A stretch of 64,000 bases of DNA from Nostocales cyanobacterium HT-58-2 (GCA_002163975.1 CP019636.1:3731001-3795000), one strand, 5' to 3'; positions 520 to 19,771 are shown, counted from the stretch's first letter. A program made the numbers and translations. Notes: generated by a model not told the origin, from the letters alone.

Positions 520-3183
520 TCAAAGCCAGTTACCAACTAATACATAAGGTGCCCAATAGCCAGGACGACTGTAATTAGGATAATATCTTAACAACTTTAC
601 TTGAGCTCGACGCAAGGCTTCAGCCTTTGTCACCTTAGTTTTCACTAACTCACGATAAAATTCACCAATTAAGATAGCAGTAGATTTATCACTGATATGC
701 CACAGTGAAGCCAAGGTACTACGGGCACCAGCTTTCACTGATGCTCCTGCTAGACCTAGGGTGGCGCGATTGTCACCAACCGCAGTTTGGCAAGCGCTTA
801 AAACCAGCATTTCCAAGTCTTGTGAGCCAGTCTCATCTCGACGACGAAGCAGGCTATCAAATTGCGTCACGTTGATGGGACCATCAGCAGCAAGTATAAA
901 AGTTTTCTCAGCACGTGAGCTAAATTGACCGTGGGTTGCCAAATGCAACACATTAAATGGTGCAGCATTTACCTTACTCTCTAGGTTTTTGCTGTTGAAG
1001 TCCCGGTCTAGTAACTGTATGGTAGACGCGATCGCTTGGGAAATGGAGTTGAATTCTGATTTAATTTCCGGTAACGGTGGAAATTGCTGTCGAAAGTCTT
1101 GTGGTGGCTGCACTAACCCGGCAGCTAGTACGTTGAGTTTTGTTTGTGTCAAGGGTTTGGGTGCAAGTAACTGAAGTCCTAAGCTGAGTGCTACAGCGTA
1201 TTTTTCTATCAGATATTGCTCACCATCATACAGTATAGCCATTGGCACATTTCGCAATACTCCATCCAGTACAAATACAAGAGTTTTGACTCCACTGGCT
1301 TTTAAATCTGACTCAATTTCTTTGATTAACCAACCATAAACTTCCTGTGACAGTGCCTGTACTTCCTCAGTTCTGTCGGGTTCTAATAGATCCTCTTTGA
1401 GTTGTCTCAGAATACTTTCTACTTCGTTCTGAGGTTTATTCACTGTATAATTACGCAGTGGCTGTTTAGGAATTTTGACAATCACTTGGAGTTGAGAAGG
1501 CAGAATAATTGGATAAATGATTGCGGCTGTTGGATTATCTTTATCTACCACTGTGTCAAGTAAAACAGTTTTGGCATTAATGCAAGCTTCCCGGAAAAAG
1601 TCGTCCAATTCTGCCAGTTGCAGTGCTTCAATTCTCTGTCTAGCTTTGTCTAAGGTTATTTCGTTTGGATTGGTTTGCTGAGACTGCAACAGTAACTCTA
1701 CGGATTCTCGATATACTGGCTCTACACTTTCTTTAAAGGAAAATTGCACATCTCGATTGACAACGACTAAATCACTACGGAGAATCTTCAGCTCACTGAC
1801 CGCAGTATCATAGGCAGCAATAGCGCTCTTAATCTCTCCTTGCTGTTTTAACAAACGTCCTAACTGCCAATGCCAGCGATAAGCGATATCTGGGGCATTA
1901 ATTGTTTGGGCTATAATCAGTGCTTGTTGAGTGAGTTTCTGGGCAATAGACCATTGTTTCGTTTGTTCGTATACACTACCCAAAGTACCAAGGGCAAAAC
2001 TCTCAGCTCGCTTATCTGTTAAATCTTTGGCTTGTTGCAAAGCTGTGGCGCAGATTTGAGCGATCGCTTGGGGTGTCGTCCCCAATTTCAACAAGCTTTG
2101 AGCTAGATGAACACGGGCATAGATAGTTGTCTGAGAAGGTGGTAAACTGGCAAGTTGAGTTTGGATTTGTAGCAATAGTGTCTGCGCAGCTGCTGTTTGT
2201 TCTGTGCTAATTAGCAAGCTCAACTGATTAATTTGAGCCTGGACTTTAGTAATCGGGTTAGGAGCGATCGCTGCAGCTTGCTGATAAAATTCTAGAGCCC
2301 CTTTAAAGTCTTGCTGTACCCGTGCAGTGTTGCCTAAGCTAAACAAAGCGGCACTCACATTCTCTGGAGAATCCAATTTTTGAGCGATTTCCAGGCTTTG
2401 TTGTAATACCTGGCGAGATTTATTCAAATCTCCTGCCAATTGCAAAGCATCACCCAGAGACCGTAATTCTACTGCTTTTATGACTGAATGAGGTTTTGAT
2501 TGTAACTCCTGCTGCAATTCAGCCAAGATTGTCAAACCCCGACGGTAAAACCCCAAAACTTGCCATGCTTGTGCTTGGTTGATGCGATCACGGATAATGC
2601 CATTTTTATCACCTAATTTTTTATAGATCGCTTCCGCACGTTGCCAGGTGTTAAGTGCTTGTTCAGCTTGTCCCAAATCTAGTTGAATACTACCTTGGAT
2701 ATCGAGGATTGGAGCCAGAACCTGAAGATTTTGGGCAGTAGAGGATTTTTCAAGCAACTTCAAGCTATCTATAATTGCCTGTTGCGCTTGTGTCAAATGA
2801 CCTAGTTTTTGATATGCCAATGCCAAATTACTTAATGCCACAGCTTGCTTCAATTCATTGCCTTGGCTGCTATAACTTTTCACTGCTTGTTGCAAAACTT
2901 TAACCGCTTCTGCAAACTGTTCAGCCCTGTACAGTACTTTACCCTGTTGCAGCAAGTCTTGTGTTTGTGCAGTAGGATTTTGGATTGACATTCGTAGAGA
3001 AGCGATATGTTGTGTCTCTACAGTTGCAGCAACAGGAAAAGCAATAACGCATAACAAAGCTGTCACTAGAACCAAGAGAATGAAAACAAGCAAGTCATGA
3101 ATTTTAGAGGAACGAATGTACCATATGTTATATGTGTTATGCGTCGGTTGCCACTTATTGTTCTTATGACTCTTGAGTTTCAT
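520..3183 (-). CDS. Membrane-anchored TPR-CHAT domain protein (caspase-like peptidase)
   Basis: An 887-aa protein. A hydrophobic segment at about residues 30-52 (LLVFILLVLVTALLCVIAF) acts as signal or anchor. Residues about 75-470 are tetratricopeptide repeats with recurrent A-x-x-x-Y/F and LG patterns. Residues about 560-887 are a CHAT domain. The expected catalytic dyad is visible: His751 in HLATHGQF and Cys798 in VLSACQTA, followed by the typical GLAGASVKAGARSTLASLW stretch. CHAT domains are caspase/separase-fold peptidases, and TPRs usually bind a partner or substrate. The ATG is preceded by a strong AGGAGG. The gene lies 33 bp downstream of the hemagglutinin-like gene on the same strand, so the two are probably cotranscribed and the secreted protein or its system is a plausible substrate. 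The target itself is not visible. Confidence 0.92.
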   Translation of the reverse strand: MKLKSHKNNKWQPTHNTYNIWYIRSSKIHDLLVFILLVLVTALLCVIAFPVAATVETQHIASLRMSIQNPTAQTQDLLQQGKVLYRAEQFAEAVKVLQQAVKSYSSQGNELKQAVALSNLALAYQKLGHLTQAQQAIIDSLKLLEKSSTAQNLQVLAPILDIQGSIQLDLGQAEQALNTWQRAEAIYKKLGDKNGIIRDRINQAQAWQVLGFYRRGLTILAELQQELQSKPHSVIKAVELRSLGDALQLAGDLNKSRQVLQQSLEIAQKLDSPENVSAALFSLGNTARVQQDFKGALEFYQQAAAIAPNPITKVQAQINQLSLLISTEQTAAAQTLLLQIQTQLASLPPSQTTIYARVHLAQSLLKLGTTPQAIAQICATALQQAKDLTDKRAESFALGTLGSVYEQTKQWSIAQKLTQQALIIAQTINAPDIAYRWHWQLGRLLKQQGEIKSAIAAYDTAVSELKILRSDLVVVNRDVQFSFKESVEPVYRESVELLLQSQQTNPNEITLDKARQRIEALQLAELDDFFREACINAKTVLLDTVVDKDNPTAAIIYPIILPSQLQVIVKIPKQPLRNYTVNKPQNEVESILRQLKEDLLEPDRTEEVQALSQEVYGWLIKEIESDLKASGVKTLVFVLDGVLRNVPMAILYDGEQYLIEKYAVALSLGLQLLAPKPLTQTKLNVLAAGLVQPPQDFRQQFPPLPEIKSEFNSISQAIASTIQLLDRDFNSKNLESKVNAAPFNVLHLATHGQFSSRAEKTFILAADGPINVTQFDSLLRRRDETGSQDLEMLVLSACQTAVGDNRATLGLAGASVKAGARSTLASLWHISDKSTAILIGEFYRELVKTKVTKAEALRRAQVKLLRYYPNYSRPGYWAPYVLVGNWL

Positions 3184-3216
3184 AGAAATTCCTCCTGCTA
3201 GTCTTGAGGTAACGAA

Positions 3217-6200
3217 CTATTGACAGGACATAGCAGAGGGAACAGAAGAACTTTGCTCAGATTGAGTTGCGTTCATAGGTGTCACCTCACCCCCGCCCCT
3301 CTCCTTGCTAAGGAGAGGGGTGCCCGGAGGGCGGGGTGAGGTTCTTGAATGCAACTTAGTATCAGATTGAGCCACAAGCATGACATCACCTTTAGCATCG
3401 ACAATCCATCCTTGAGCCTCCACAATCTGATGAGTAGATTTGGTCATAGATGCAGTTGATAATTTATCCGTTACTCCCTCTGTGACTTGTGGGGGCAAAT
3501 CTACCCAATCTGTAATCACTGCTCGTCCCCGCAACGGTTCATTTGGACTGAGAGGTAATCCACCGCGTCCTGTGGCTATAAACCTACTGGCGGTTTGTCT
3601 TCCTCTGGGTGTGCAGCCAGAGGCAATTTGTTGTGATGCATCGACGAGGTTAGAGGGTAATTGAATTAAGCCGCGACTAGGGTCAGTATCCGGAGTGTTG
3701 ATAGTTATCTCCCCACTCACTCCCAATTCAGAACTCGCTGTAATGTCGCTCTTTTCGGTTGGGTTTTTTTGCGGGACAATACCGAAAATACCGTTAGCTG
3801 TAATGTCAACTCTACCACCTTTACCTGTAAAGGCATTGGCGGTGATGTCACTATTTTCTCTGGGGACGGCGACGATGAAGGGGGTATTTATGGTGATGTT
3901 ACCGCCATCGCCACCGAACTCGTTATTGCCAGCAGTAGTGGAGATTTGACTGCCATTGCGTAGTAATAATAGTTCTTGCAGATTCAAAGTAATATTACCG
4001 CCAGTGTTGCTGCGAGTTTCGGCAGAGATGATTCCCTTATCTAGGGTGAGGGCGCCTGCTGCTAGTTCAATATTGCCGCCAATTCCTGTACCTTGGCTAT
4101 CGACAGCTATTTTCGCGCCATCTCGGATGGTTAAAGTTCTGGGGTCGATAGAGATATTACCACCGTTGCCAGTGGAACTGAGAGTGGTGTTGGCAAATAT
4201 TCCTGTGTCTGAGCCAGAGAGGGTGAAGTTATCACGTACTTTTAGAGTTATGTCTCCTGCATCAAAATTGCTTGAGGTGCTGGTGCTGAGTTGCCCGCCA
4301 TCGGTGGCTTCTAAGATATTTGCTCTCACTTTGATGTTGCCCGCCTCACCCTGTCCAACAGTACTAGCACGCAGTTGAGCGCCATTGGTAACGGTTAGTA
4401 ACCCAGTTGTGATATCGATATCATTGGCATTGCCAATTGCTTCAGGTTCCACAGAGGTTACTATCTCACTACGGAATCCATTGCTCGCTATGCCATCTAA
4501 AGAAACTTTTTCTTGTGCTACGATTGTTACCTTGCCAGCATTTCCTCGACCCAAAGTGGCAGCAGCTACCGCAGCACCATTCTTGAGTGAAAGGGACTCT
4601 GCGACGATTTGGATATCGCCCCCCTGTCCCTCACCCACAGCTCCTAATGAATCTCTGCCAACCGCGCTAAATACACCTGTATTTTTATTTCTGGGACTGT
4701 TTGCTCCATCGAAGAAAACATGATCGCGTGCTTCAATCATCACACTACCTGAGTTACCCCGCCCAAATGTGTTGGCAGTTAATTGACCTCCATTGTTTAA
4801 CGAAAGGGAACCTGTTTTAATCTTAATGTTCCCCCCTTGTTGGAAAGTTGCGGTTTCTACAGTGGTAAAGATGCCAGTTAAGTGATCGACTGCTGGATTT
4901 GGATTTTTCTCTGTTCCATCAAAAAAGATGCGATCGCGAGCTTCAACCGTTACATTACCTGTGTCTCCCTGTCCCTCACTCTTAGTTTGGATGCGAGCAC
5001 CATCAGTGATGGAGAGGGAGCCAGTTTTGAGCGTGATATCGCCTCCCCTACCAACGCCGCTGGGAAAAACGGTAGCGAATAAGCCACTGGCAAATCCATC
5101 GTCACCGATTCCATCGAAAGAAGCAAGATCGCGAACCTCAAGCTCCATAGTGCCTGCATTGCCTTGTCCCTCAGTGACAGCTACGAGTTCAGCTCCCTCA
5201 ATTAGGAAAAGTGAGCCAGTTCTAAGTGTGATCCCGCCCACGCTACCAGCAGCTTCAGGAAAAATGGAGTTGTAAATTGTGCTCTCACCGGAGAGAGAGA
5301 CAAGCCCATTTGCTTGTACCAAAATCTTTCCGGCGTTGCCTATTCCTCCAGGAGCTACAGAATTGTATATGTTACTGGCATCAATTGAGATTCTTTCTCG
5401 GGCATTGAGCCTTAAATCTCCCGCTTGACTATCAACACTTCCCAAATTGCGTCTGATTCCAGACACAATTGAACTATCCGAAATTTCTATATTTTGAGCA
5501 TCAATATTTATACTCCCGCCGCCACTGGAAGCCACAAAAATTTCAGCCTTATTGATGGACACATCTCCACCACCGATCAGCCTGACATCACCGCCCAATG
5601 CATCTGATGCATCACCCGGAAAGCGTATTAACGCATTAGCAAAGATTCTAGAACCAGGATCGAGTTTAATGTTGCCAGTTGCTAATAAGGTAATATCTCC
5701 AGCTCGAGTTGAGCCAGAATAAGTGTCAATATAGCTGTTTGCCAGTGTAATGTTACCTCTTGAGTCAAAAATAACGGAGCCACCATCACCTTCAACGCTA
5801 CCTGCTCCCATCCCACCAATATTTGATGTTCCTTGCCCAGTTAGAGTAATATCTCCACCTGCCAGGGATAGATTAGGTTTGTAATGATTCGTTAACAAGA
5901 TAAGTCCACTAGGAGGATTAATCTGGACACTGCCAATGGTGATATCTGCACTCGTTGCTACGGGATTGTTAGCGGAAGGTGGAAATAACAGGGTAAAGTT
6001 ATTACCACTGATTCCTAAAGGATTGGCGATCGCTTCTGCTTTCACTCCTGCTCGCACATCAAGAGTCGGTCGCTGACTGCCATCAATGACAACGGGAGTT
6101 CCATCCGATAAATTAACATTGGCTAAGGTCGGGGTTGATGTTGGATTGATCGTATCACCAGTCGTATCTGTCCCCGTAATAATCGCCGTACCGAGCTTTA

Positions 6201-7215: not shown

Positions 7216-7231
7216 ATCAAAATTGACCTCA

Positions 7232-7294: not shown

Positions 7295-7465
7295 ATCTTG
7301 CACCTCTGAGTATAACCCAGGACCTAGTTAAAAGCAGCGCAATAAAGTTACATCACTTTTCTGAGCTTTTCTTTGTTTAATAAGCGTTTCAGGCTTAGTA
7401 CTGAGTTTTCAAATAACATCAATTTTTCTTAGTGCAAGATGTCAGTTGATAAAATTTTCTAGTGT

Positions 7466-7540: not shown

Positions 7541-7638
7541 GGCTTAACTCCTTTTTAGTTGTTAATACTGCTAACAAATCACTGTGTAATTAGAGGCAAA
7601 GACAATGTCAACAGGGAAGGGAGAATTTGCTTTTTATT

Positions 7639-7836
7639 TCATGTAGCTTCGAGTTGAGAGATACTCGTTTCGAGCAATTTGGGTGATGCGCTTAGCTCCT
7701 GAGTCGTCCACTTGCAAACCAACTCACCATTGACTGTGAGCCACTGAGCAATTAAGCTGTTTTTTCTAGAAGCTGTCGATACAACAGTCACTGGAGTAGG
7801 TTGAACTTGAGATTTGTCAACGATTGCACAAGCCAT
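7639..7836 (-). CDS. Microprotein B (65 aa), paralogue of the upstream gene
   Basis: I do not recognise this family. The 65-aa product shares an ordered pattern with the 58-aa product of the gene just upstream: KSQ-x-x-x-TP-x-TV-x-ST, then a hairpin-like L-x-A-x-W-x-x-x-x-G-x-LV-x-x-W core. Its ATG follows directly on the stop of the upstream gene (TAGATG), which suggests translational coupling and explains why it lacks its own ribosome binding site. It has no signal peptide or double-glycine leader. The conserved W-x4-G-x-LV-x2-W core suggests a small beta hairpin with two exposed tryptophans. It sits between the hlyD/ABC exporter genes and the hemagglutinin gene. Confidence 0.6.
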   Translation of the reverse strand: MACAIVDKSQVQPTPVTVVSTASRKNSLIAQWLTVNGELVCKWTTQELSASPKLLETSISQLEAT

Positions 7837-8013
7837 CTAACTGATTTCAACTGACTTGGATGATTCGTGACTATTTGAAACGCTCCAAGTGGAAACCAAC
7901 TTGCCATCAATATTTATCCATGTAGCTACTAGTCCTCTTTTGCAAGGAATTGTAGATATTACCGTATTAGGAGTAGAGTTCAACTGTGATTTTTGTCTAA
8001 TTGTGGAATTCAT
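7837..8013 (-). CDS. Microprotein A (58 aa), paralogue of the downstream gene
   Basis: The reverse-strand frame starts with ATG at 8011-8013 after a good AGAGG sequence (7-8 bp) and ends in TAG at 7837-7839. It begins MNSTIRQKSQLNSTPNTVIST and contains LVATWINIDGKLVSTW, which aligns with LIAQWLTVNGELVCKW of the next gene. The shared pattern across two tandem ORFs, one with a strong ribosome binding site and the other coupled to it, argues that both are real. The pair probably arose by duplication and then diverged. Function unknown; its position suggests a role in the peptide export/adhesin locus. Confidence 0.6.
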   Translation of the reverse strand: MNSTIRQKSQLNSTPNTVISTIPCKRGLVATWINIDGKLVSTWSVSNSHESSKSVEIS

Positions 8014-8325: not shown

Positions 8326-8507
8326 CATTGCGATTGCATAGGCTGACATTGCGATTGCATAGGCTGACATTGTGATTGCATAGGCTGACATTGCCATTGC
8401 ATGAGCTGACATTGTGATTGCATAGGCTGACATTGCCATTGCATAGGCTGACATTGTGATTGCATAGGCTTGCATTGCGATTGCATAGGCTGACATTGCC
8501 ATTGCAT
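8326..8507. repeat. 21-bp tandem repeat, about 8.7 copies, abutting the end of hlyD
   Basis: The unit CATTGCGATTGCATAGGCTGA repeats at 8326, 8347, 8368, 8389, 8410, 8431, 8452 and 8473, with a partial copy to 8507. Variation is mainly GCG/GTG/GCC at one position. The array stops 3 bp before the hlyD stop codon on the reverse strand. Since 21 is a multiple of 3, all frames stay open, so the array generates long but probably meaningless reverse-strand ORFs (for example 8215-8502, repeating MSAYAIA). Confidence 0.9.
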
Positions 8508-8510
8508 CGA

Positions 8511-10016
8511 TTACAAATCAGTAATCAACCTTGCTTTACGAAGAAAGAATTGCAGTACTGTTTCTTCACGGGAAATAATATCAGCCCTACCCTCCATGCC
8601 CAATTGAATGTGACACTGGTTTTTACCTTTACCTAAAACCAGAGTTTCCGGTTCAATAGTCACTTCATAGAAGGCAGCAGGCGCAGCTGCTTTTGGACTA
8701 GCAGTCGCGTTAGGCATGGATGCATTTGTCCCATTCTTTTGAGGAGCAATTGTATCTGGAGAAATTGCTTGCACTTTGCCATTGAGAGTACCATAATCCG
8801 GGTAAGGGCAAGCGCTCACTCGCATTTGGACTTTTTGACCAATTTTTAACTTACTCTTATCTTCAGATGCCACTGCAGCTTTCAAAACCTGAGGTGCATT
8901 AGTGGGGACAATTTGCACTAGTTCTTCTCCAGGACGCACAGTTTGACCTGGGTTTCGTAAATTGAGTTGAGAAATGATACCATCGGCGGTAGCTGCGATC
9001 GCGGTTTGAGCTAAATCTATCTCCACTTGTTTTAGTTCGCTGGTATCACGCTCTAGCTGTTTTTCAATTTCAATCTGTTGCTTAATTAAAGCTTGGAGTT
9101 CTTTTTCTAATGTTGCTTTGGCACTTAGCCCTGCGGCTTTTTCTTGAGCAATTCGTTGAGTAGCAATTTCTACTTCGGCATGACTAGGATTTAGAGCAGC
9201 TTGGGCACGTTGTCTTCTAGCAATGGCAGCAGATACTGCTTGTTGTAACCGTTCAATTGTCTGTTTTTGCCCCTCAACAACTGCTTTTTGACCCTTCACT
9301 GCTTGTTGTTGCTGTTTCACAGCTAATTGTGCTTCTTCCAATTGATCTTTAGAGAGTGCCCCTTGGTTGGCTACGCTCTCATATCGGTTCTGTTTTGACT
9401 GGGCTGCACCCAAGGCAGCTTCGGTAGCATGAAAATTTGCTTGTGCTGTTTTTAACTGTGCCTCTCCAGCCTGCAATTCTTCCTGAGCAATTCTGACGTT
9501 AGCATCAGCTTCTTTAAGTTCGGAAACTGTAGTAATATTTTTATCTCGATATTCTCGACGGCGACCATTCAATTCGGCTTCCGCGCCAGTAATAATACGG
9601 TTGATCCGGTCAGTTTCAGCTCTCATTTGACTGTTGAGAGCATGAATCTGGGCATTGATTTGCACTGCTTGTAACTTAGCTTGTTGAATATTAGTGTGCA
9701 ATTGGCTCTTTTTGGTTTGCAGACGGGAATCATCGATAGTTGCAATAGCATCTCCTTCTTTGACAACTTGATTTTCTTTCACGTAAATATGCATTATTTG
9801 ACCTTCAGTCGTCGCCTGCACAATTCGCAATTCACCTGCCGGACGGACAACCGCCTGTCCTTTGACTGTAAGCTTATACTTAGTAACAGCAGCAACTGGA
9901 ACAGCGAGTCCTAAAACGCAGAGGATAGCCATTCCGCCAAAGGTTGTCCAACGATTAATTGGTGGAAGAAATTCGTTTGTTTGAATTGGTGGTAGAAAAT
10001 TTGTGTTACTAACCAT
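8511..10016 (-). CDS. HlyD-family periplasmic adaptor (membrane fusion protein) of a peptide exporter
   Basis: About 500 aa. One transmembrane segment near the N-terminus (MAILCVLGLAVPVAAVTKY) is followed by a split biotinyl-lipoyl-like domain (KGQAVVRPAGELRIVQATTEG and later ADGIISQLNLRNPGQTV). A long coiled-coil hairpin rich in Q, A and E covers about residues 90-330, and a C-terminal beta-barrel region is present. This is the adaptor that links an inner-membrane ABC exporter to an outer-membrane channel. The chosen start is ATG at 10014-10016; a GTG seven codons upstream is also possible, and neither has a clear ribosome binding site. The C39-ABC gene lies 190 bp upstream on the same strand, so the two very likely form one export complex. 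No TolC-type partner is encoded in the window. Confidence 0.92.
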   Translation of the reverse strand: MVSNTNFLPPIQTNEFLPPINRWTTFGGMAILCVLGLAVPVAAVTKYKLTVKGQAVVRPAGELRIVQATTEGQIMHIYVKENQVVKEGDAIATIDDSRLQTKKSQLHTNIQQAKLQAVQINAQIHALNSQMRAETDRINRIITGAEAELNGRRREYRDKNITTVSELKEADANVRIAQEELQAGEAQLKTAQANFHATEAALGAAQSKQNRYESVANQGALSKDQLEEAQLAVKQQQQAVKGQKAVVEGQKQTIERLQQAVSAAIARRQRAQAALNPSHAEVEIATQRIAQEKAAGLSAKATLEKELQALIKQQIEIEKQLERDTSELKQVEIDLAQTAIAATADGIISQLNLRNPGQTVRPGEELVQIVPTNAPQVLKAAVASEDKSKLKIGQKVQMRVSACPYPDYGTLNGKVQAISPDTIAPQKNGTNASMPNATASPKAAAPAAFYEVTIEPETLVLGKGKNQCHIQLGMEGRADIISREETVLQFFLRKARLITDL

Positions 10017-10206
10017 GATGTTATGTAAATAAACCACACTAGATGAAGAGAAAGAGAAAACGGATATTTTTACAACTGATATTTAGGATTGCTATAAGTA
10101 GAAAGGCGCAAATAAACAGAAGTATGTAACGAAAAGTAAACTTAGCTAAAACCCTCTTCCCTTCTGCCTTGTCTCAACAATAAATATTCACACCAACCTA
10201 CTTATC

Positions 10207-12426
10207 TTAATTAATGACAGCAGATTTGCCGTTACGATGACTAGATGAAGATGTTAGCATCAACGCATTTTCAGAGGTGACAAAATCATCTAGGAAGTCT
10301 AAATGTTCACCAGGCAATTTCCGCAAATCTTCTGGTCTACCTTGGATTTTTAAACGTCCTTGTTCTAGCAATACAATCCAATCTGCCCGTTGTATGACCT
10401 TGGGACGGTGACTAATCAGAATAGTCGTTTTATTATGACGGTGGTATAAAAGTCTATCTAGTACTTGTGCTTCGCTGACTGGGTCGAGTGCGCCAGTGGA
10501 TTCATCTAGAATTAGGATAGGTGGGTCAGTCACTATTGCTCTCGCTATGGCTAATCTTTGCCGTTGTCCACCGGAAAGATTTGCACCAAATTCTCCTAAA
10601 ACAGTTTGATATTTATCAGGAAGTTTGCTGATAAATTCATCTGCACCAGCAATTTGACAAGCTCTGACAATTTCTTCAAAACTAATGTGAGGATAGCTAA
10701 AGCGGAAGTTATCAATAATCGAACGACTCCAAAAGTGGGGTTCTTGAGGAACTAAGACCACCTGTTGTCGCAGACATTCTAAAGATAGGTCTTGCTGATT
10801 GTAGAAATCATAACAAATATTGCCAGACTGAAGTTTATATAAACCAGTAATCAATTTGGCAAGGGTACTTTTACCACAGCCAGATTTACCAATCAGAGCA
10901 GTAACTTGACCGCCAGGAATAGTTACGCAAAAATCTTGTAATAGGTCCACTCTACCTGCGTGGTGAAAGTTAAGTTCGGTGCAAGTGATATCTGCATCAC
11001 CAGGAATTTGTGCCCACGGCTTTTTAAAATCATTTTCGTCTTCTGGGGTCGCATCAATAACTTCTGTGAGGCGTTGAATAACTATTTGGGCAGTGATAAA
11101 CTCATCTACTAAGCTGATCGCACTACCAAGAAAGCCCAGAAAATTCCCACTCATGCCGTTATACGCCATCAATTGACCTATTGTTAAGGTACGATTAATG
11201 ACTAAATAGCTACCTATCCAGAGGATGCCAATACTAATGAAAGTGGAAAGAATGCCAGTGACTGTACTGCTATAAAGCCCCAGCTTCATCATACTCCAGC
11301 CCAGATTGGCAAGACGACCATAATTCCCTTGGTATTCTTCCCATGCTTGCGGAGTGGCTTGGGTAGTTTTTAACACCTGGACACCGCGAAATGTTTCTAC
11401 AAGAAAGCCTTGATTTTCTGTACCAGAAACAATCATATTACGGGTTTTCTGGCGCATTGCTGGTAAGAAAAGCAAGTTAACACCCGTGACAATGATAAAG
11501 GCAACTATAGAAGCTAGAGTTAATTCCCAACTGTAAAAGAGCATAAAGCCCAAGGAGGCTACAGCGATAAAAAATTGGCTAGGTAAACCAAGGACGATTT
11601 GGGAAACTAACTTATTGATGGCGTTGACATCAGCAATGCGACTGACGACTTCCCCGCTGCGTCGTCCTTCAAAGTAGGATAGAGGTAAGTGTAAAAGTTT
11701 GCGCCCGTATTCTAGAATGAGTCCTAATTGCAATCTTTGACCAAAATGACCGATGAGGTGAGATTGTACTAAACCAATAGTACTTCTAATCAAGTTCATG
11801 GCTATCACGCCAATTGCCACGGTGGTTAGTAATTGGGTATCTCCCCGCACTAAGACATCATCGGTAAGCAGTTGCATCATAAAGGGAGATGTCAGAGAAA
11901 GCAATCCAATGGCTATGTTAATGGCGATCGCTTGAGTGAGAAGATGACGATACGGCCAAACTCGTTGCAGGTATCTTCCCAAACCGCCGATTTTATCTGA
12001 TTCTTGTTGATAAAAACGGCTGTCATCCGGGGTTAACAACAACATCACCCCATTACCCCAACCCGTCATTAACTCTTGGCGAGTCAGATAACGTACACCA
12101 ACGCCGGGGTCAGCAATGACATATTTTTTGCCTTTTTGTCCGTATAATACTACCCAGTGGTAGCCTTTCCAGTGGATAATGGCTGGTAAAAAGACTTGGT
12201 GTAACTCGTCGATGAATTGGGAGTTAGCTTTAACTTGACGGGCATTGAATCCGAGGACTTCTGCACCCCGGCTTAATCCCAATAGGGAGGTTCCCCTAGA
12301 ACCTGTGCCTACGCATTCCCGGACGCGATTGAGGGTAAATGTGCGTCCGTAATATTTGGCAATGGTGGCTAGGCAGGCGGCTCCACAATCTTCTTCACTA
12401 TGTTGTTGGATAATTGGGTATTTCAT
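10207..12426 (-). CDS. Peptidase-containing ABC transporter (C39 peptidase, ABC-C39/PCAT type)
   Basis: A 739-aa protein with three parts. Residues 1-130 are a C39 cysteine peptidase with Cys14 in EEDCGAAC, His90 in GYHWVV and Asp106 in IADPG; this domain cuts after double-glycine leaders during export. Residues about 160-460 are a six-helix ABC membrane domain. Residues about 490-720 are the ATPase, with Walker A GKSGCGKST, signature LSGGQRQR and Walker B ILILDESTGALD. All catalytic motifs look intact. The obvious cargo is the pair of double-glycine proteins encoded immediately upstream, and HlyD is encoded downstream. A 7-bp-stem hairpin at 12464-12482 lies between the cargo and this gene, which may lower exporter expression relative to cargo. 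Confidence 0.95.
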   Translation of the reverse strand: MKYPIIQQHSEEDCGAACLATIAKYYGRTFTLNRVRECVGTGSRGTSLLGLSRGAEVLGFNARQVKANSQFIDELHQVFLPAIIHWKGYHWVVLYGQKGKKYVIADPGVGVRYLTRQELMTGWGNGVMLLLTPDDSRFYQQESDKIGGLGRYLQRVWPYRHLLTQAIAINIAIGLLSLTSPFMMQLLTDDVLVRGDTQLLTTVAIGVIAMNLIRSTIGLVQSHLIGHFGQRLQLGLILEYGRKLLHLPLSYFEGRRSGEVVSRIADVNAINKLVSQIVLGLPSQFFIAVASLGFMLFYSWELTLASIVAFIIVTGVNLLFLPAMRQKTRNMIVSGTENQGFLVETFRGVQVLKTTQATPQAWEEYQGNYGRLANLGWSMMKLGLYSSTVTGILSTFISIGILWIGSYLVINRTLTIGQLMAYNGMSGNFLGFLGSAISLVDEFITAQIVIQRLTEVIDATPEDENDFKKPWAQIPGDADITCTELNFHHAGRVDLLQDFCVTIPGGQVTALIGKSGCGKSTLAKLITGLYKLQSGNICYDFYNQQDLSLECLRQQVVLVPQEPHFWSRSIIDNFRFSYPHISFEEIVRACQIAGADEFISKLPDKYQTVLGEFGANLSGGQRQRLAIARAIVTDPPILILDESTGALDPVSEAQVLDRLLYHRHNKTTILISHRPKVIQRADWIVLLEQGRLKIQGRPEDLRKLPGEHLDFLDDFVTSENALMLTSSSSHRNGKSAVIN

Positions 12427-12563: not shown

Positions 12564-12989
12564 TTAAGCATAGACCGCGTAGGTTACGTCATAAATAGAG
12601 CCACTTTTACCAATGCGTGTTGTTACGTAACCGTTTGTAGGAGTACTTCCAACAGTAAAACCGCCTAGAGAGTCATCGTCACCAGCCAAACCGCCGTCGG
12701 AATCAAACAGATTAATGCTTGCAGTCCCACTAAATTGCTTCCATGTGAAGAAATTGGCGGTTTCACCAGTATCTACGTCGTTAGTTGTACTGGTTTTGTC
12801 TCCATTTATCCTGGCATATACGTCGTCTCCGTTACTCCAACCGAAGTCTGCACCTGCTTTAATTGCAGTGGCTTTATACAAGTAAAGCCAAGCACCACCT
12901 TCGATGACAGCTCCTTGTTCGGGAGTTAAGTCAGTAAATAATTGTTCTTGCTCGACAACAAAATTACTAGAGGTAGAAATATTTGACAT
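12564..12989 (-). CDS. Double-glycine secreted cargo protein, copy 2 (CTB/bacteriocin-like leader, C2-like mature domain)
   Basis: A 141-aa protein. Residues 1-32 form an acidic leader ending LTPEQGAVIEGG, the double-glycine site recognised by C39 peptidases. The mature part (from Ala33) has no cysteines and is rich in G, D, S and T. It contains INLFDSDGGLAGDDDSLGGF, which resembles the acidic Ca2+-loop pattern D-x-D...DD-x-LG of C2-like beta sandwiches. That would make it a folded protein of about 109 residues, large for a bacteriocin. It differs from copy 1 at only a handful of residues (for example F10 for S10, FFTWK for FSKWK, IGKSGSI for ISGSGST). It is encoded just upstream of the exporter on the same strand. 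The family name is an inference from leader and context; activity as a toxin is unproven. Confidence 0.82.
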   Translation of the reverse strand: MSNISTSSNFVVEQEQLFTDLTPEQGAVIEGGAWLYLYKATAIKAGADFGWSNGDDVYARINGDKTSTTNDVDTGETANFFTWKQFSGTASINLFDSDGGLAGDDDSLGGFTVGSTPTNGYVTTRIGKSGSIYDVTYAVYA

Positions 12990-13117
12990 GATTTGTTTCC
13001 TTGCTTGTGATTGATTTAATTTGCTAGAAATAGATTCGGGGTTGAATATTTAACTTCTGAGAACCAAAAGTTTGACCCTGGAGTTATTGACGATGCCAAA
13101 GTTTTCAGGAGTGCTTT

Positions 13118-13543
13118 TTAAGCATAGACCGCGTAGGTTACGTCATAAGTAGAGCCACTTCCACTAATGCGTGTTGTTACGTAACCGTTTGTAGGAGTGC
13201 TTCCAACAGTAAAACCGCCTAGAGAGTCATCGTCACCAGCCAAACCGCCGTCGGAATCAAACAGATTAATGCTTGCAGTCCCACTAAATTGCTTCCATTT
13301 GGAGAAATTGGCGGTTTCACCAGTATCTACGTCGTTAGTTGTACTGGTTTTGTCTCCATTTATCCTGGCATATACGTCGTCTCCGTTACTCCAACCGAAG
13401 TCTGCACCTGCTTTAATTGCAGTGGCTTTATACAAGTAAAGCCAAGCACCACCTTCGATGACAGCTCCTTGTTCGGGAGTTAAGTCAGTAAATAATTGTT
13501 CTTGCTCGACAACAGAATTGCTAGAGGTAGAAATATTTGACAT
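13118..13543 (-). CDS. Double-glycine secreted cargo protein, copy 1
   Basis: The 141-aa near-twin of the protein encoded at 12564-12989, first in the leftward series. The N-terminal MSNISTSSNSVVEQEQ leader and the VIEGG cleavage motif are conserved, as are the FGWSNGDDVYARING and DDDSLGGF motifs of the mature domain. The 5' flank, shared with the other copy, contains a purine-rich AAGCAAGGAAACAAATC sequence just before the ATG that includes an AGGAAA ribosome binding site. Two almost identical cargo genes suggest selection for dose, or recent duplication. No separate immunity gene is evident next to either copy. Confidence 0.82.
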   Translation of the reverse strand: MSNISTSSNSVVEQEQLFTDLTPEQGAVIEGGAWLYLYKATAIKAGADFGWSNGDDVYARINGDKTSTTNDVDTGETANFSKWKQFSGTASINLFDSDGGLAGDDDSLGGFTVGSTPTNGYVTTRISGSGSTYDVTYAVYA

Positions 13544-13593
13544 GATTTGTTTCCTTGCTTGTGATTGATTTAATTTGCTAGAAATAGATTCGG

Positions 13594-13877
13594 CTTAGGA
13601 AAATCAGCAGGAAAGCATTTATTCCTGCCTCAATGCAGAGGTAAGGTATTTAAGTAAGTTTTAATTCACTTCATTAGCACCTTTTTTGTAGTACTTAGTT
13701 ATGTGAACTTCTCTGCATACCACTCTTTACGATGACTTTTAGTTTTTATGCACTGAGATCAGAAAATTTTTTGAAAAATCTGTAAAATCCTTATGCCACA
13801 AGGAATAGGCTCTTTGGTTTTAGCTCCAAAGCTGTATAATTGAAAGCACCTATGATTCAAACAGCGGCGAGTATTCC
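13594..13877. promoter_or_regulatory. Divergent promoter region between the cargo/exporter genes and the sigma-factor operon
   Basis: The two halves of the locus are transcribed away from this AT-rich gap. A TATAAT at 13835-13840, with TTGGTT at 13815-13820 about 14 bp upstream, is a plausible rightward promoter ending 37 bp before the sigma-like gene. No clear leftward promoter stands out. The sigma-like factor encoded next door could act on this region, but no repeated binding motif was seen. Confidence 0.4.
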
Positions 13878-15068
13878 ATGCAACCCCGACAGGGCATTAT
13901 TGAAATCTTTTCCACTTTTGTACAATTTGATCTAGACCAATTTAGTGGTTGGGTAACTGACCCTAAACTACGACGCAGTATGAAAGTTTGCCTGGAACAG
14001 TCGTCAACTGAGGAATCAGATAGGTTTTGGGCGCTTTACTGGTATAAAATTTGGCAAACTCAATCCAGTACTGTGGCACTGACACATATTTCTGCTTATT
14101 TACAAGAGGTTTGCTATTGGACTGCAAGAAAATTAGCCCTGAACTTTTCCACGCACTCATCTGTAGCAGACTATTTTCAGATTGCGATCGCTCATCTTGG
14201 CAAAATCCTCAAGACTTTCAATCCTCAATACAGTTCGCATTTAAAAAGCTATGCAGAATTAGCTTTTGACAGGATTATCAAGGATGAATTGCGCTTACGT
14301 CGGGAAACAGAGATTTGCTCGGACTGGGCTTTATTGCATAAACTGAGCCGTAAAAGACTGGTAAAATCATTACAAAATATAGGCTTTAACACTCAAATCA
14401 TCGAGAGTTATGTTTTGGCTTGGGAATGCTTTAAGGAACTCTACACAGGTGACGATACAAAAATTCGCTCGCTTACCAAACCAGATGCTGCGAGTTTGGA
14501 AGCTATTACTAATCTCTACAATGCAGAACGTTTAAGTCGATTGAGTTCACCCACTCCCGTAGTTAACCAGCAAACCCTAGAAAAGTGGTTGTTATCTTGT
14601 GCTAAAGCTGCTCGTACCTTTCTCTATCCTAAGGTTGTTTCCGCAGACACTCCCCTCAAAGAAGAAGAGGATAGTACTTTATTAGATATATTGCCTGCGG
14701 TGCAAACATCTTTATTAGCGGAAATCCTTGAGCAGGAAGAAGCTAGGAATATACGAAATCAGCAAGCTCAGTTAAACCAAGTTTTACAGCAAGCAATAAC
14801 TGCTTTGGATGCTGAGTCACAAAAACTGCTGCAAGTCTACTACGCTCAGAAACTGACTCAAACAGAAATTGCTGCGCAGTTAGAAATCAAACAATACACA
14901 GTTTCCCGTCGGCTCACTAGCATTAAAAAATCATTGCTACTGACTCTAACGCAGTGGAGTCAAAACACCTTGCATATTTCCCCTAAATCCGACGTAATAG
15001 ATGCCATAAACACAAGCTTAGAGGAATGGCTCACATTCCACTACAGCCATGCCACATGGAATGAGTAG
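13878..15068 (+). CDS. Sigma-70-family RNA polymerase sigma factor-like protein
   Basis: A 396-aa protein. The C-terminal ~75 residues look like sigma region 4: ALDAESQKLLQVYY followed by LTQTEIAAQLEIKQYTVSRR, a helix-turn-helix that would contact the -35 element. The middle (about 120-150, SYAELAFDRIIKDELRLRR) resembles region 2. The N-terminal half is poorly conserved and the protein is longer than a simple ECF factor, so binding to core polymerase is inferred. It is the first gene of the rightward set (DUF1822, CHAT-CHASE2, DUF928), a combination that recurs in cyanobacteria. The likely role is to switch on the surrounding locus. A GGCGAG sequence lies near the ATG. Confidence 0.75.
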   Translation: MQPRQGIIEIFSTFVQFDLDQFSGWVTDPKLRRSMKVCLEQSSTEESDRFWALYWYKIWQTQSSTVALTHISAYLQEVCYWTARKLALNFSTHSSVADYFQIAIAHLGKILKTFNPQYSSHLKSYAELAFDRIIKDELRLRRETEICSDWALLHKLSRKRLVKSLQNIGFNTQIIESYVLAWECFKELYTGDDTKIRSLTKPDAASLEAITNLYNAERLSRLSSPTPVVNQQTLEKWLLSCAKAARTFLYPKVVSADTPLKEEEDSTLLDILPAVQTSLLAEILEQEEARNIRNQQAQLNQVLQQAITALDAESQKLLQVYYAQKLTQTEIAAQLEIKQYTVSRRLTSIKKSLLLTLTQWSQNTLHISPKSDVIDAINTSLEEWLTFHYSHATWNE

Positions 15069-15154
15069 ACAAGAAAATAAAGGAAAATTTCTTTCCAATT
15101 TTGCCTGTCTCCCCCACCTCCCCTAACTCTTCAAACATGGAGCCATTCTAATTT

Positions 15155-16306
15155 ATGTCTAACGCACCTTCCCTATTTACCATTGACTCACAGCAGTTGT
15201 ACCTGGAAATTCCCCAATCTCCACAGGTGCAAGAACAACTATACTCAACGGCTGGTGCTTGTCAACGTGCGTGGATTAATCAAATTTGTCTGCAAGCATT
15301 TTTACCTTGGTTCAAAGAAGAAATTGCCTCCAGCGCGAGAGGCTATCCCAATACTGCAGCGTTGCCGAGTTTTTGGGAAGTTGTTAATGGCACAGCTATT
15401 ACTTTTGATACATCTCGCCTTGTATTGATTCCCACCCTCGCTATGGATGGGGATGAGTTGCGCGTACCACAGGAATGGGTAGATATTCCAGAGTGGGTTG
15501 CTGATTACTACGTTGCAGTACAGGTCAATCCCGATGACGGCTGGATAAAACTTTTTGGCTACACAACCCACCAAAAGCTGAAAACAAAAGGGGTTTATGA
15601 TGCTGTTGACCGTACTTACAGCTTGGAGAGTGAAGATTTCATTCAAGATATCAATGTACTGTGGGTGACACGCCAACTAAATTCTTCAGAAGTTTTACGC
15701 GCCGAGATTGCACCTCTACCCGCCATTTCCCAAATCCAAGCAGAAAACCTCCTAGAAAGGTTAGGTCATCCCGATGTGAAATTTCCCCGTTTGGCAGTTC
15801 CATTTTCACTGTGGGGGGCATTGCTAGCACATAGCGGTTGGCGAAAAAAATTATACGAACTGCGTCAGGGCTTACCCCAGCAGTGGTCAATTCCCCAATG
15901 GTTGCAGACAGGAGTAGCGAATTTCGCTCAACAGTGGGGATGGGAAACAAGAGAATTTGTGGTGGTGCCTGCGGGAATGCGGAGTGCAGAATCAGTTCTA
16001 GGCTTCTCTCGACAAATAATAGTTGCAGGTCATACATACGAGTTACGTATTTTTCCAAAAGGAGTTTCTGAAGACCATGTTTGGCGCTTTGAATTGCGAA
16101 GTACAACTCCTGGTGGTCAAATTCCCGTTGGGTTGAAGTTGCGACTGTTAACGGAAGACTTACAAGCTTTTGAGAATAATGAAGATACAGCAATGACTCC
16201 CGTAGATATGTTGTATTTGGAAGTCATTTTGGAACCAGGAGAAGGATTAGTTTGGGAAACAGAACCCGTACCTGAAGACTACGAGCGAGAAATTTTGCGA
16301 TTTTAA
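15155..16306 (+). CDS. DUF1822 family protein
   Basis: A 383-aa soluble protein. The N-terminus (LYLEIPQSPQVQEQLYS, then RAWINQICLQAFLPWFKEE) and the PTLAMDGDELRVPQEWVDIPEWVADYYVAVQVN segment are the hallmark of the cyanobacterial DUF1822 family. No catalytic motif, signal peptide or transmembrane helix is visible. The gene follows the sigma-like gene by 86 bp and precedes the CHAT-CHASE2 gene. This order is typical for the family, but its molecular function is unknown. It may couple the sigma-like factor to the membrane sensor, which is only inferred from context. Confidence 0.85.
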   Translation: MSNAPSLFTIDSQQLYLEIPQSPQVQEQLYSTAGACQRAWINQICLQAFLPWFKEEIASSARGYPNTAALPSFWEVVNGTAITFDTSRLVLIPTLAMDGDELRVPQEWVDIPEWVADYYVAVQVNPDDGWIKLFGYTTHQKLKTKGVYDAVDRTYSLESEDFIQDINVLWVTRQLNSSEVLRAEIAPLPAISQIQAENLLERLGHPDVKFPRLAVPFSLWGALLAHSGWRKKLYELRQGLPQQWSIPQWLQTGVANFAQQWGWETREFVVVPAGMRSAESVLGFSRQIIVAGHTYELRIFPKGVSEDHVWRFELRSTTPGGQIPVGLKLRLLTEDLQAFENNEDTAMTPVDMLYLEVILEPGEGLVWETEPVPEDYEREILRF

Positions 16307-16489
16307 GCACAAAAATAGGATTGCTATAAGAAGTGATTCACAAAGAAAACCTTTTTGTAGGAGGATAGGAAACGCGATGGTGTAACTTTTGCTGCTTAAG
16401 GAATTGATATCCAGAGGCTACGCCTAACACATCCTGCGTTTAATTATGTCCGTTTACTGAATATTTACTTTATCTTTGGAGAACTAGCT

Positions 16490-18865
16490 GTGGGCAAGTT
16501 AGTCATCTTAAAATTAGGAGAGGGAACCTTTGAACAAGGGTTTCCCGTGACTCTACAGATTGGTGATGAAAATGTCCGCCCTAGTGTGGAAATCACGGGT
16601 GAGCTTCCCCCCAACCCGGAAATTCTCCGCGATTATTACCGTTGGCAATCTCTTTATCGTAATTTAAGGTTACCATCTCGTCCTATCGGTTTACCAAAGC
16701 AACTTAACCAACCCTCCAGCCTAGAAGACTGTCAGCAGGTGAGTGAGGAATTTAAAGTACGTTTTAATACTTGGCTTGCTTCTGATTCCTTTCGTCCTAT
16801 CCGCGAGAAATGGCTGGAAAAACTCGTGCTTGCGGATAATATACGTGTGCTCATACAAACTAAGGACCTACGATTACAAAAACTCCCCTGGCATCTTTGG
16901 GATTTGTTGGAACGCTATCCCCGCGCAGAAATAGCCTTGAGTGCTCCCGCCTACGAACAGGTCAACCGAATAGTAACCACATACGATAAAGTAAAAATCT
17001 TAGCAATTTTGGGTAACAGTCAAGGAATTGATACCCAAGCAGACAAGGCGCTGCTTAATTTGTTACCCAATGCAGACATCAATTTTTTAGTTGAACCACG
17101 ATGCCAAGACCTTACTGATCAGCTATGGGAGCAACATTGGCAGATTCTATTTTTCGCCGGACACAGTTCTACTCAGGAAACGAATGAAACAGGAAAAATC
17201 TATATCAACCAAACTGAAAGTCTAACAATTGGTCAGTTAAAATATGCCTTGAGAAAGGCAGTAGAACGAGGTTTACAACTGGCAATTTTCAATTCCTGTG
17301 ATGGCTTGGGATTGGCACGGGAGTTTGCTCCTTTGCATATTCCCCAAATCATTGTTATGCGAGAACCTGTACCTGATCAGGTGGCGCAGCAATTTTTAAA
17401 GTATTTTTTGGAAGCCTTCGCGCGGGGAGACTCGTTATATTTAGCCGTAAGGCAAGCAAGAGAAAGGTTACAGGGGCTAGAAAATCAATTTCCATGCGCT
17501 ACATGGTTGCCTGTCATCTGTCAAAACCCTGCAGAGTTGCCGTTGAATTGGGGGGACTTGTGTAGAAATACAAGTAATATTCCTACATCTTTGGCTAAAA
17601 CCACCCCTGTTACAAGAATCGCAAATCGGCTTGGCTTCTCATTGCTCCTTCTAACCAGTATGGCAATGACTGGAATATTAACGGGAGTACGGTATTTGGG
17701 TGTACTGCAACCATTAGAGCTAAGTGCGTTTGACCAACTGTTACGCTTGCGTCCTCCTGAGAAACCAGACTCACGCTTACTGATTATCACTGTGACTGAA
17801 GAAGATGTGCAGGCGCAACAACAGGAAAAACCCCAGGGTTCCTTGTCAGACAAATCACTTGCCCAACTGTTAGAAAAATTAGAGACATATCAACCACAAG
17901 TTATTGGTTTGGATATATACCGAGATTATCCAGTCGGTAAGGATTATCCAGCATTGGCAGAACGGATACGAAAAAGCGATCGCTTTGTGGCGGTGTGTCA
18001 AGTCAGCGATTCCCAAGCAGAAAAACCAGGTGTGAAACCACCACCAGAAGTTTCTCCAGAGGGTCTAGGTTTTAGCGATATTGCCATAGATTCAGATAAT
18101 GTCGTTCGTCGCCATCTGTTAGCATTAACTCCCCCACCCTCATCTGCTTGTACTGCTTCCTATGCCCTGAGTGTTCAACTTGTGCTGCGTTACCTGTATG
18201 CGAAGGGAATTCAGTTGCAATTTACCCCTGATGGTGCTTGGCAATTAGGGAAGCTGACATTTAAATCGGTAGAAGCTCATACCGGAGGTTATCAAGGAGT
18301 TGACGCTTTTGGACACCAAATTTTGTTAAATTATCGTTCCTCTCCTTCCCCAGAAGCGATCGCACCACGCATTACCTTAGGACAAGTGCTAGCGGGTCAG
18401 CTAAACACCAATGCAGTCAAAGACAAAATAGTTATTATTGGCACAACAGCAGAAAGTTTTCGTGATTACTGGTTAACTCCCTACATTACTCCCCAAGGGA
18501 AATTACAGACAATACCAGGAGTATTTTTACAAGCCCAGATGGTTAGTCAACTACTCAGTGCTGCTTTGGATGGACGACCTTTGTTGTGGACTTGGTCACT
18601 TTGGGGTGAAGTGATTTGGATTTGGTGCTGGTCTTTTTTAGGCGGTTTGCTTGCTGCTTATCTGCACCGATTCACTTACTTAAGCTTGGCAGCTGGGATA
18701 GCTATTACTAGTTTATACGGTACTTGTTTTGTATTATTTGTTGTATCGAGTTGTTGGGTTCCCCTTATTCCTGCTGTGTTGGCTTTAGGAGGTAATAGTT
18801 CATTAACCGCAGCTTTCTTAAATATAAAATTCAAAATTCATAACAACACCAGGGGCGAAAAATGA
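16490..18865 (+). CDS. CHAT domain fused to a CHASE2 sensor membrane protein
   Basis: A 791-aa protein starting at GTG, with GGAG 8 bp upstream. The cytoplasmic N-terminal half is a CHAT caspase-like domain with the dyad His225 (ILFFAGHSS) and Cys270 (IFNSCDG). A transmembrane helix follows at about 385-405 (LLLLTSMAMTGILTGVRYLG). A CHASE2 extracytoplasmic sensor domain comes next, with typical phrases FDQLLRLRPPEKPDSRLLIITVTEEDV, VIGLDIYRD and GKLQTIPGVFLQAQMVSQLL. Three C-terminal transmembrane helices close the protein. CHASE2 domains sense unknown extracellular ligands and usually control kinases or cyclases; here the output would be proteolysis. It is encoded between DUF1822 and DUF928 genes and is the second CHAT protein of the locus. 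Confidence 0.9.
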   Translation: MGKLVILKLGEGTFEQGFPVTLQIGDENVRPSVEITGELPPNPEILRDYYRWQSLYRNLRLPSRPIGLPKQLNQPSSLEDCQQVSEEFKVRFNTWLASDSFRPIREKWLEKLVLADNIRVLIQTKDLRLQKLPWHLWDLLERYPRAEIALSAPAYEQVNRIVTTYDKVKILAILGNSQGIDTQADKALLNLLPNADINFLVEPRCQDLTDQLWEQHWQILFFAGHSSTQETNETGKIYINQTESLTIGQLKYALRKAVERGLQLAIFNSCDGLGLAREFAPLHIPQIIVMREPVPDQVAQQFLKYFLEAFARGDSLYLAVRQARERLQGLENQFPCATWLPVICQNPAELPLNWGDLCRNTSNIPTSLAKTTPVTRIANRLGFSLLLLTSMAMTGILTGVRYLGVLQPLELSAFDQLLRLRPPEKPDSRLLIITVTEEDVQAQQQEKPQGSLSDKSLAQLLEKLETYQPQVIGLDIYRDYPVGKDYPALAERIRKSDRFVAVCQVSDSQAEKPGVKPPPEVSPEGLGFSDIAIDSDNVVRRHLLALTPPPSSACTASYALSVQLVLRYLYAKGIQLQFTPDGAWQLGKLTFKSVEAHTGGYQGVDAFGHQILLNYRSSPSPEAIAPRITLGQVLAGQLNTNAVKDKIVIIGTTAESFRDYWLTPYITPQGKLQTIPGVFLQAQMVSQLLSAALDGRPLLWTWSLWGEVIWIWCWSFLGGLLAAYLHRFTYLSLAAGIAITSLYGTCFVLFVVSSCWVPLIPAVLALGGNSSLTAAFLNIKFKIHNNTRGEK

Positions 18866-18955
18866 ATGTAACAGATAGATTTTGAAAAGTATTGCTGCAT
18901 AAGGCTTGTATAATCTCAAATCTATAATCCAAAATTCTTTAACTTCTAATTCTCT

Positions 18956-19771
18956 ATGAAAAGCTATTGGCAAAAAATACAATTAATCACTGCATTCGGG
19001 ATGGCTTTGTTAGGAATTTTCACCTATGCTCCAATAATTGGCATGACACCAGTTTCCGCCATTCCTGTTGCATTTACGCCTCCTCCACCTCCTCCAGACA
19101 GGGGAGCAGCAGGCGATCGCGGAGGAGCTGCAAGTCGTGGTTGTGGCGTTGGTAATCAGTCTGTTGTTGCACTTATACCTATATACGAACAGACACTCAA
19201 GCAAGGAGAAACAGAAGCAGTTTCTGTGACTAAAGTTTGGGGTTTGACCACTCAAGAACATCCAACTTTTTGGTTTTTTGTCCCTTATAAAAAATCTACA
19301 ATTCATTCCATTGAGTTTGTGCTCAAAGATGAGTCAAGTAAACCAAGTCAAACTCTTTACCGAACACCAGTGACAATACCAGAAGTACCAGGAATTATTA
19401 GTATTCGCTTAAGCGCAACGACCCCCCCATTGCAAGTAGACAAAATGTATCACTGGTTTCTCAAGATGAAACTCATTTGCAATCCACAACAACCTGCAGA
19501 AGGGGAGTCTGTGGAAGGATGGGTGCAACGGGTTAATCCAAATCCTAAATTAGCAGATAGCCTGAAACAGGCAACTTCTCAGCAACGAGTAGGGCTTTAT
19601 GCTGAGAATGGTATTTGGTACGATGCTTTGACGAGTTTGGCTCAATTACGTCTTGCTAAACCTCAAGATCCAACTCTGGCAGAGGAGTGGATGAATTTGC
19701 TGAAGTCAGTAAATCTGGAGCATTTAGCCAAACAACCTCTTCTTAAATGTTGTCAAGCTAACCCTCTTTGA
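18956..19771 (+). CDS. DUF928 secreted protein
   Basis: A 271-aa protein. A signal peptide is visible (FGMALLGIFTYAPIIG, with a possible AIPVA cleavage zone), followed by a proline/glycine/arginine linker PPPPPPDRGAAGDRGGAASR. The body has the DUF928 pattern: LIPIYEQTLKQGETEAVSVTKVWGLTTQEHPTFWFFVPY and KMYHWFLKMKLICNP, then a helical C-terminus with LAEEWMNLLKSVNL. It probably works in the periplasm. It is the last gene of the rightward set and, given the consistent clustering of these families, may contact the CHASE2 sensor or the TPS substrate. No enzymatic motif is seen. Confidence 0.85.
   Translation: MKSYWQKIQLITAFGMALLGIFTYAPIIGMTPVSAIPVAFTPPPPPPDRGAAGDRGGAASRGCGVGNQSVVALIPIYEQTLKQGETEAVSVTKVWGLTTQEHPTFWFFVPYKKSTIHSIEFVLKDESSKPSQTLYRTPVTIPEVPGIISIRLSATTPPLQVDKMYHWFLKMKLICNPQQPAEGESVEGWVQRVNPNPKLADSLKQATSQQRVGLYAENGIWYDALTSLAQLRLAKPQDPTLAEEWMNLLKSVNLEHLAKQPLLKCCQANPL

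Follow-up and report, generated by a model that had tools for sequence, protein, structure and literature searches.

A CHAT-CHASE2 and ECF-like sigma factor locus of a Nostocales cyanobacterium: a putative signal-to-secretion module with a promoter-like element facing its exported cargo

Among the closest described relatives of the locus considered here are the EACC2-caspase systems, the core of which, in the main-text passages that describe it, combines a caspase-CHASE2 protein with an extracytoplasmic function (ECF) sigma factor and DUF1822 (Kaur et al. 2021, PMC8195603). An ECF sigma factor is set free in type III-E CASP systems when the CHAT protease Csx29 cuts the anti-sigma factor Csx30 (PMC10028731), and cyanobacterial clusters that combine C39 exporters, HlyD adaptors and double-glycine (GG) precursors are familiar (Wang et al. 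2011, PMC3140520; PMC4997328). The present locus occupies positions 520-19771 of a 64,000-nt stretch of the genome of Nostocales cyanobacterium HT-58-2 (CP019636.1:3731001-3795000, hereafter the window). Its plus-strand arm encodes a sigma-like factor, DUF1822, a CHAT-CHASE2 protein and DUF928, and its minus-strand arm a TPR-CHAT protein, a two-partner secretion (TPS) exoprotein, HlyD, a C39-ABC exporter and two tandem cargo genes. We favour, with some confidence, the view that the locus is a signal-to-secretion module, in which a membrane sensor-caspase/ECF-sigma switch would drive the production of exported cargo.

Genomic segments of at most 20 kb surrounding homologues were fetched from other genomes of the same GTDB family, together with 78 named loci from a GTDB scan, and the families were mapped in them using profiles built for this analysis. 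The module recurs in about 100 loci, and the recurring core in Nostocaceae is sigma, DUF1822, CHAT-CHASE2 and DUF928, reshuffled in order and orientation. In 28 loci that hold both CHAT-CHASE2 and the long sigma factor, DUF1822 is present in 27, DUF928 in 28, TPS in 20, TPR-CHAT in 13, C39 in 7 and RTX in 8; at least one export gene is found in 25 of the 28. Across nine complete genomes, 23 of 56 DUF928 copies have a TPS gene no more than 10 kb away, against a null mean of 1.87 (reached in 0 of 2000 rotations), and 5 of 56 have a C39 gene at such a distance (null 0.99; 4 of 2000 rotations). The original prediction had treated the parts as one module, a proposal against which a co-occurrence no better than chance would have spoken; the families co-occur above chance, and both the rotation nulls and the recurrence in homologous loci bear the proposal out. 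The nearest named loci are those of Nostoc sp. JL33, N. punctiforme NIES-2108 and N. desertorum, the host being close to Nostoc, and three Nostoc orthologues (L076, L077, L079) retain the entire set of HlyD, C39, cargo, sigma, DUF1822, CHAT-CHASE2 and DUF928. The host genome itself carries six DUF1822 genes and several paralogous modules. The genes that adjoin the core in homologous loci encode LanM lanthipeptide synthetases, RTX proteins, PPIC foldases, PPC/calpain proteins, TpsB and small GG peptides; two of the adjoining peptides are precursors of ribosomally synthesised and post-translationally modified peptides (RiPPs) according to NCBIfam, one of the mersacidin/lichenicidin lantibiotic family (TIGR03898) and one with a Nif11 leader (TIGR03798). 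The export cassette beside the core is swapped between strains, and may consist of GG peptides, lantibiotics, RTX, Sec-exported proteins or TPS.

The long sigma gene and the gene upstream of it, frequently one for cargo or for CHAT-CHASE2, diverge from each other in 40 of 48 loci. Among close orthologues the intergenic DNA aligns poorly beside the cargo, yet contains one sharply conserved block, the core of which is present in most of 26 distinct upstream regions, loci with unrelated cargo included. Read toward the cargo, the element is TGCATAAA-N12/13-TCGTA with an A/T-rich tract directly upstream; its two boxes are constant and the spacer sequence is variable. The Bacillus sigma-W promoter, an ECF promoter, reads TGAAAC-N16-CGTA, and we take the element to resemble promoters of this type. 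The window copy sits between the sigma gene and the first cargo gene. With a weight matrix built on 16 sigma-adjacent sites the elements score 25-69 and the window copy 67.8, the random-sequence maximum being 8.9. The matrix also locates additional sites before other cargo genes of the same loci (L076, L077, L079, L052, L078), as well as one in L062 that precedes a cargo gene lacking a nearby sigma gene, all of them in cargo orientation.

A genome-wide search for the exact pattern TGCATAAANNNNNAANNNNRTCGTA in 99 genomes of the host's GTDB family returned 31 matches, spread over 20 genomes and 13 genera, and none for the reversed-pattern control. The host genome has a single exact match, that at 13728-13752 of the window; a pattern with a looser gap gives three, only the window site looking real, with one match for its reversed control. 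The distribution follows the sigma clade: the exact element occurs in 19 of 20 sigma-clade genomes (sigma at 500 bits or more, plus one genome with an 81%-identical fragment) and in 1 of 79 others. Because some of these sites had defined the pattern, the count was repeated on held-out genomes never used for it, where the element is found in 6 of 6 sigma-bearing genomes versus 1 of 79 others (p=1.6e-8, a value not to be read literally since the genomes are related). Genomic context is available for 30 matches: 18 face genes whose products carry RTX repeats, a PPC domain, a leader of the GG or RiPP kind or an export signal at the N-terminus (classes read by eye and confirmed in part by Pfam and NCBIfam), one faces a PPIC foldase gene and two face CHAT-CHASE2 itself (L163, L164). 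It is likely, judging from these sequence patterns, that the sigma factor recognises the element and transcribes the cargo from it.

Two occurrences merit separate mention. An exact copy before a Peptidase_M50 (site-2-protease-like) gene lies off-module (L173, G082:C1:765768) and may be due to chance. In the genome of L062 (G058) sigma is reduced to a truncated fragment of 81% identity and the DUF1822 gene has an internal stop, yet the element-bearing cargo gene has been kept, 1.8 Mb away; decay of the switch is a possible explanation.

The sigma-like factor matches the sigma-factor profile TIGR02937, and it is the clade of this protein with which the element co-occurs. DUF1822 directly follows sigma in 43 measured pairs, at distances of -61 to +190 bp and with many overlaps, and the pair persists where CHAT-CHASE2 does not adjoin, an arrangement that fits an anti-sigma factor or an obligate partner; this gene coupling makes DUF1822 a candidate anti-sigma factor. 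The widespread sigma-DUF1822 pairs of L007-L036, which have no adjacent CHAT-CHASE2, are often followed by a 155-aa open reading frame (ORF), the one scanned (L009) being DUF4870. The structural model of DUF1822 (pLDDT 76.6, pTM 0.63) consists of an alpha/beta domain and a beta-sandwich, and is not a TPR fold. VIA-align relates residues 40-173 to a Holliday-junction-resolvase-like fold (Z 6.9, rmsd 2.7, 109 aligned) and residues 244-379 to a UEV-like fold (Z 5.8, rmsd 4.1, 101 aligned), both under the tool's informative level, and for this reason we make no claim about the fold. In CHAT-CHASE2 a conserved N-terminal region (residues 1-187), at the place where EACC2 systems have their alpha+beta EACC2 domain, precedes the caspase-fold domain, and His225/Cys270 are invariant across 20 homologues (alignment A1), so that the active site of this predicted protease is intact. 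A protease with an intact site is one trait of protease-released ECF sigma switches of the RseA/RsiW/CASP type; for the other two, an anti-sigma factor that inhibits sigma and an ECF-type sigma with a promoter element of its own, DUF1822 and the present element are candidates. DUF928 comes after CHAT-CHASE2 in nearly all complete loci.

The mechanism that we propose begins with CHAT-CHASE2 as a membrane protein that would display CHASE2 as an extracytoplasmic sensor and keep its caspase-fold domain in the cytosol, with DUF928 as its exported partner; the topology of both is predicted. The ECF-like sigma factor would be held by, or work through, its constant neighbour DUF1822, and CHAT-CHASE2 would control sigma: once a cue is sensed, the caspase domain would cleave DUF1822 (or itself) and sigma would be freed to fire TGCATAAA-N12/13-TCGTA promoters, among them one that diverges from the sigma gene. 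The GG cargo, perhaps also the C39-ABC/HlyD exporter, would then be made and the cargo exported. The parts, their linkage, the intact catalytic dyads and the promoter element are computed here, as is the joint distribution of the element and the sigma clade; beyond these we infer sigma binding to the element, DUF1822 as inhibitor, proteolytic release and the cue. Cleavage of DUF1822 by CHAT-CHASE2 in response to an outside cue is proposed because the CHAT protease Csx29 cleaves the anti-sigma factor Csx30, and by this analogy it is a tentative suggestion. The full chain, in which a membrane caspase would cleave the anti-sigma factor DUF1822 on cue and a freed, dedicated ECF sigma would fire interchangeable exported-cargo cassettes, with several paralogous copies working in parallel within one multicellular cyanobacterium, is rather doubtful as a whole.

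Several results weigh against a sigma-driven secretion module. About nine of the 30 genome-wide sites with context precede no clear exported product; motif discovery upstream of other sigma lineages (9 long-sigma and 13 short-sigma loci) yielded nothing clearly above shuffles; and DUF1822 has no significant PDB match in Foldseek and no recognised known anti-sigma fold. Within the window the element precedes the cargo only, with no copy upstream of TPS or TPR-CHAT, and these two genes would therefore require read-through or another promoter. The original idea that the sigma-like factor controls the module is plausible for the exported cargo, given that the element tracks the sigma clade, and no more than a possibility for TPS and TPR-CHAT. 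The element also lies upstream of sigma, about 65-200 bp from its start in most loci, and on position alone could be an operator for sigma, that is, a site at which another regulator would exert divergent control over the sigma gene and the cargo. We consider this unlikely: additional copies precede cargo genes that have no adjoining sigma gene, in cargo orientation, the two boxes, 12-13 nt spacer and upstream A/T tract are as expected of an ECF promoter, and the presence of the element follows the sigma clade. That the element marks the border between constant core and variable cargo, and is repeated before several cargo genes, would also suit an integron-like recombination site, which would account for cargo swapping. 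Such a role is highly improbable, as the element precedes CHAT-CHASE2 too (L163, L164), its boxes are constant while the spacer sequence varies, and the annotated part of the genes looked at in these loci includes no recognisable site-specific recombinase.

A different reading accepts that sigma drives the cargo promoter, and takes DUF1822 as a positive partner of sigma and the caspase as a protease that processes an effector or itself in a conflict or cell-death response, activated as an autopeptidase in the manner of Kaur et al. It is possible, if on the doubtful side. The class architecture stands among conflict systems in the relevant passages of Kaur et al. (2021, PMC8195603), the sigma-DUF1822 pair is found also without adjacent CHAT-CHASE2, and the RiPPs and RTX proteins in the cargo could be antagonistic; against this, many cargo proteins resemble surface or matrix proteins, and the PADLOC matches were limited to generic TPR and, at low score, BovA and Cas3c, none of its models being matched by DUF1822, CHAT-CHASE2 or DUF928. 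The notion of independent systems that are only neighbours in a region rich in export genes draws on the wide variation in gene order and orientation and on the incomplete presence of TPS (20/28) and TPR-CHAT (13/28) in core loci. It is very unlikely in view of the linkage of TPS and C39 to DUF928 above the rotation nulls, and for the arm made up of exporter, cargo, sigma and CHAT-CHASE2 the set retained in L076, L077 and L079 contradicts it already.

Where one GG cargo had been predicted, the locus has two tandem genes encoding 96% identical proteins, plus the HlyD adaptor; C39-ABC exporter, HlyD and GG-leader precursor, the components of a peptidase-containing ABC transporter (PCAT) cluster, are thus all present. 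Both leaders end in ...LTPEQGAVIEGG, and the roughly 109 residues that follow are modelled by AlphaFold as a beta-sandwich (pLDDT 77.5), for which Foldseek returns C2 domains (best, perforin C2 4y1t, E=6.5e-5, TM ~0.5). On the strength of these matches the cargo is probably a C2-like protein and not a small bacteriocin, and a protein of such a fold may bind calcium or membrane. The tandem cargo genes (12564-13543) also share matching flanking DNA, and the duplication looks recent.

The TPS and TPR-CHAT genes are 33 bp apart, as first reported, and the cysteines singled out for mutation proved correct, Cys798 pairing with His751 in TPR-CHAT and Cys270 with His225 in CHAT-CHASE2. His751/Cys798 are invariant across 42 TPR-CHAT homologues, and in 21 of 45 cases TPS is found no more than 5 kb from TPR-CHAT, mainly co-directional and about 70 bp or less apart. 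The two genes are linked to the module and may belong to its regulon. The further suggestion of a substrate shared by both CHAT proteins finds no support, TPR-CHAT occurring in just 13 of the 28 core loci. TpsB is absent from the module, as claimed; the genome encodes one full-length ShlB, 540 kb away within a paralogous module, plus one weak partial match. The C-terminus of the TPS protein runs into a PRPPGTPLLSKERGGGE tail (window 3217-3340) that resembles an inserted repeat.

Each of the ten module proteins has its anticipated domains in Pfam and NCBIfam profile scans, and ORFs and coordinates agree (Table 1). Scans for sigma-70 promoters and terminators gave scores near or under shuffle means. 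A 21-bp tandem repeat of 8.7 copies (8326-8507) abuts the HlyD stop codon, and between HlyD and TPS lie two similar small ORFs of 65 and 56 aa (7639-7836 and 7846-8013, minus strand; motif LxAxWxxxxGxLxxxW), homologues of which were sought in the fetched loci and not found. Elsewhere in the window a Lamassu defence system (44365-48031, plus strand) comprises LmuA (ABC-3C CTD7, Cap4 nuclease match), LmuC and LmuB.

Table 1. Features of the locus in window coordinates.
Feature	Position	Strand	Evidence
TPR-CHAT caspase-like protein, 887 aa	520..3183	-	Pfam CHAT 609-885, E=4.7e-54, and TPR; dyad His751/Cys798
TPS (hemagglutinin-type) exoprotein, 1332 aa	3217..7215	-	Pfam TPS 36-296, 1.5e-48
HlyD-type periplasmic adaptor	8511..10037	-	Pfam HlyD_3; TIGR01843 under cut-off
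C39-peptidase ABC exporter (PCAT)	10207..12426	-	Peptidase_C39 5e-36, ABC_membrane, ABC_tran
Cargo 2: GG leader and C2-like domain	12564..12989	-	96% identity to cargo 1
Cargo 1: GG leader (...AVIEGG) and C2-like beta-sandwich	13118..13543	-	AF2 pLDDT 77.5; Foldseek C2 domains
ECF-like promoter element TGCATAAA-N12-TCGTA, directed at cargo 1	13728..13752	-	Sole exact-pattern match genome-wide
Full conserved block: element and upstream A/T-rich tract (UP-element-like)	13725..13776	-	Kept across orthologous intergenic regions; weight matrix 67.8
ECF-like sigma factor, 396 aa	13878..15068	+	TIGR02937 2.1e-28, 99 bits vs cut-off 42.9; Sigma70_r4 above cut-off
DUF1822, candidate anti-sigma factor, directly 3' of sigma gene	15155..16306	+	PF08852 E=2.2e-106
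CHAT-CHASE2 sensor-caspase (EACC2-type architecture)	16490..18865	+	CHAT 188-339, 8.6e-15; CHASE2 395-720, 7.2e-68; His225/Cys270
DUF928, predicted exported partner of CHAT-CHASE2	18956..19771	+	PF06051 E=3.1e-64

Filamentous cyanobacteria carry multiple DUF1822 and CHAT-CHASE2 genes, from several to over ten in each genome. Now that the promoter element is defined and exported targets are listed, direct tests can address what the system activates and whether it is under the control of the caspase-fold protease; if the proposal is true, bacterial caspases would be tied to the regulated secretion of lantibiotics, RTX and surface proteins.

The locus shares features with several known systems. 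Cyanobacterial bacteriocin/PCAT clusters (PMC3140520) and the GG biofilm proteins EbfG of Synechococcus (PMC4997328) have in common with it the C39-ABC exporter, HlyD and GG precursors, sometimes also LanM and SurA/PPIC; these papers mention no sigma factor or CHAT protein, and the cargo here is a C2-like domain protein by its model. Two-partner secretion (type Vb) likewise features a TPS-domain exoprotein and calls for a TpsA with its cognate TpsB in the operon, whereas the module has the TPS domain only, with TPR-CHAT next to it instead of TpsB. Type III-E CASP/Craspase comprises Csx29 (TPR-CHAT), Csx30 and CASP-sigma (PMC10028731); here the input would be a membrane CHASE2 sensor, not Cas7-11/RNA, the output would be exported cargo, and DUF1822, unlike Csx30, is only a candidate inhibitor. 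The EACC2 systems have a caspase-fold domain after a conserved N-terminal region, a C-terminal CHASE2 and ECF sigma and DUF1822 neighbours; the locus has the same caspase-fold domain with C-terminal CHASE2 and the same two neighbours. The passages concerned describe DUF1822 as a TPR protein, in contrast to the alpha/beta and beta-sandwich model obtained here (PMC8195603). The module had been called undescribed, which does not hold for this core, as the main-text passages of Kaur et al. already set it out (2021, PMC8195603). Those main-text passages name no DUF928, TPS, C39, RiPP cassette or promoter, and within these passages and the other literature searched, the coupling of the core to interchangeable export cassettes and to a promoter element appears to be new.

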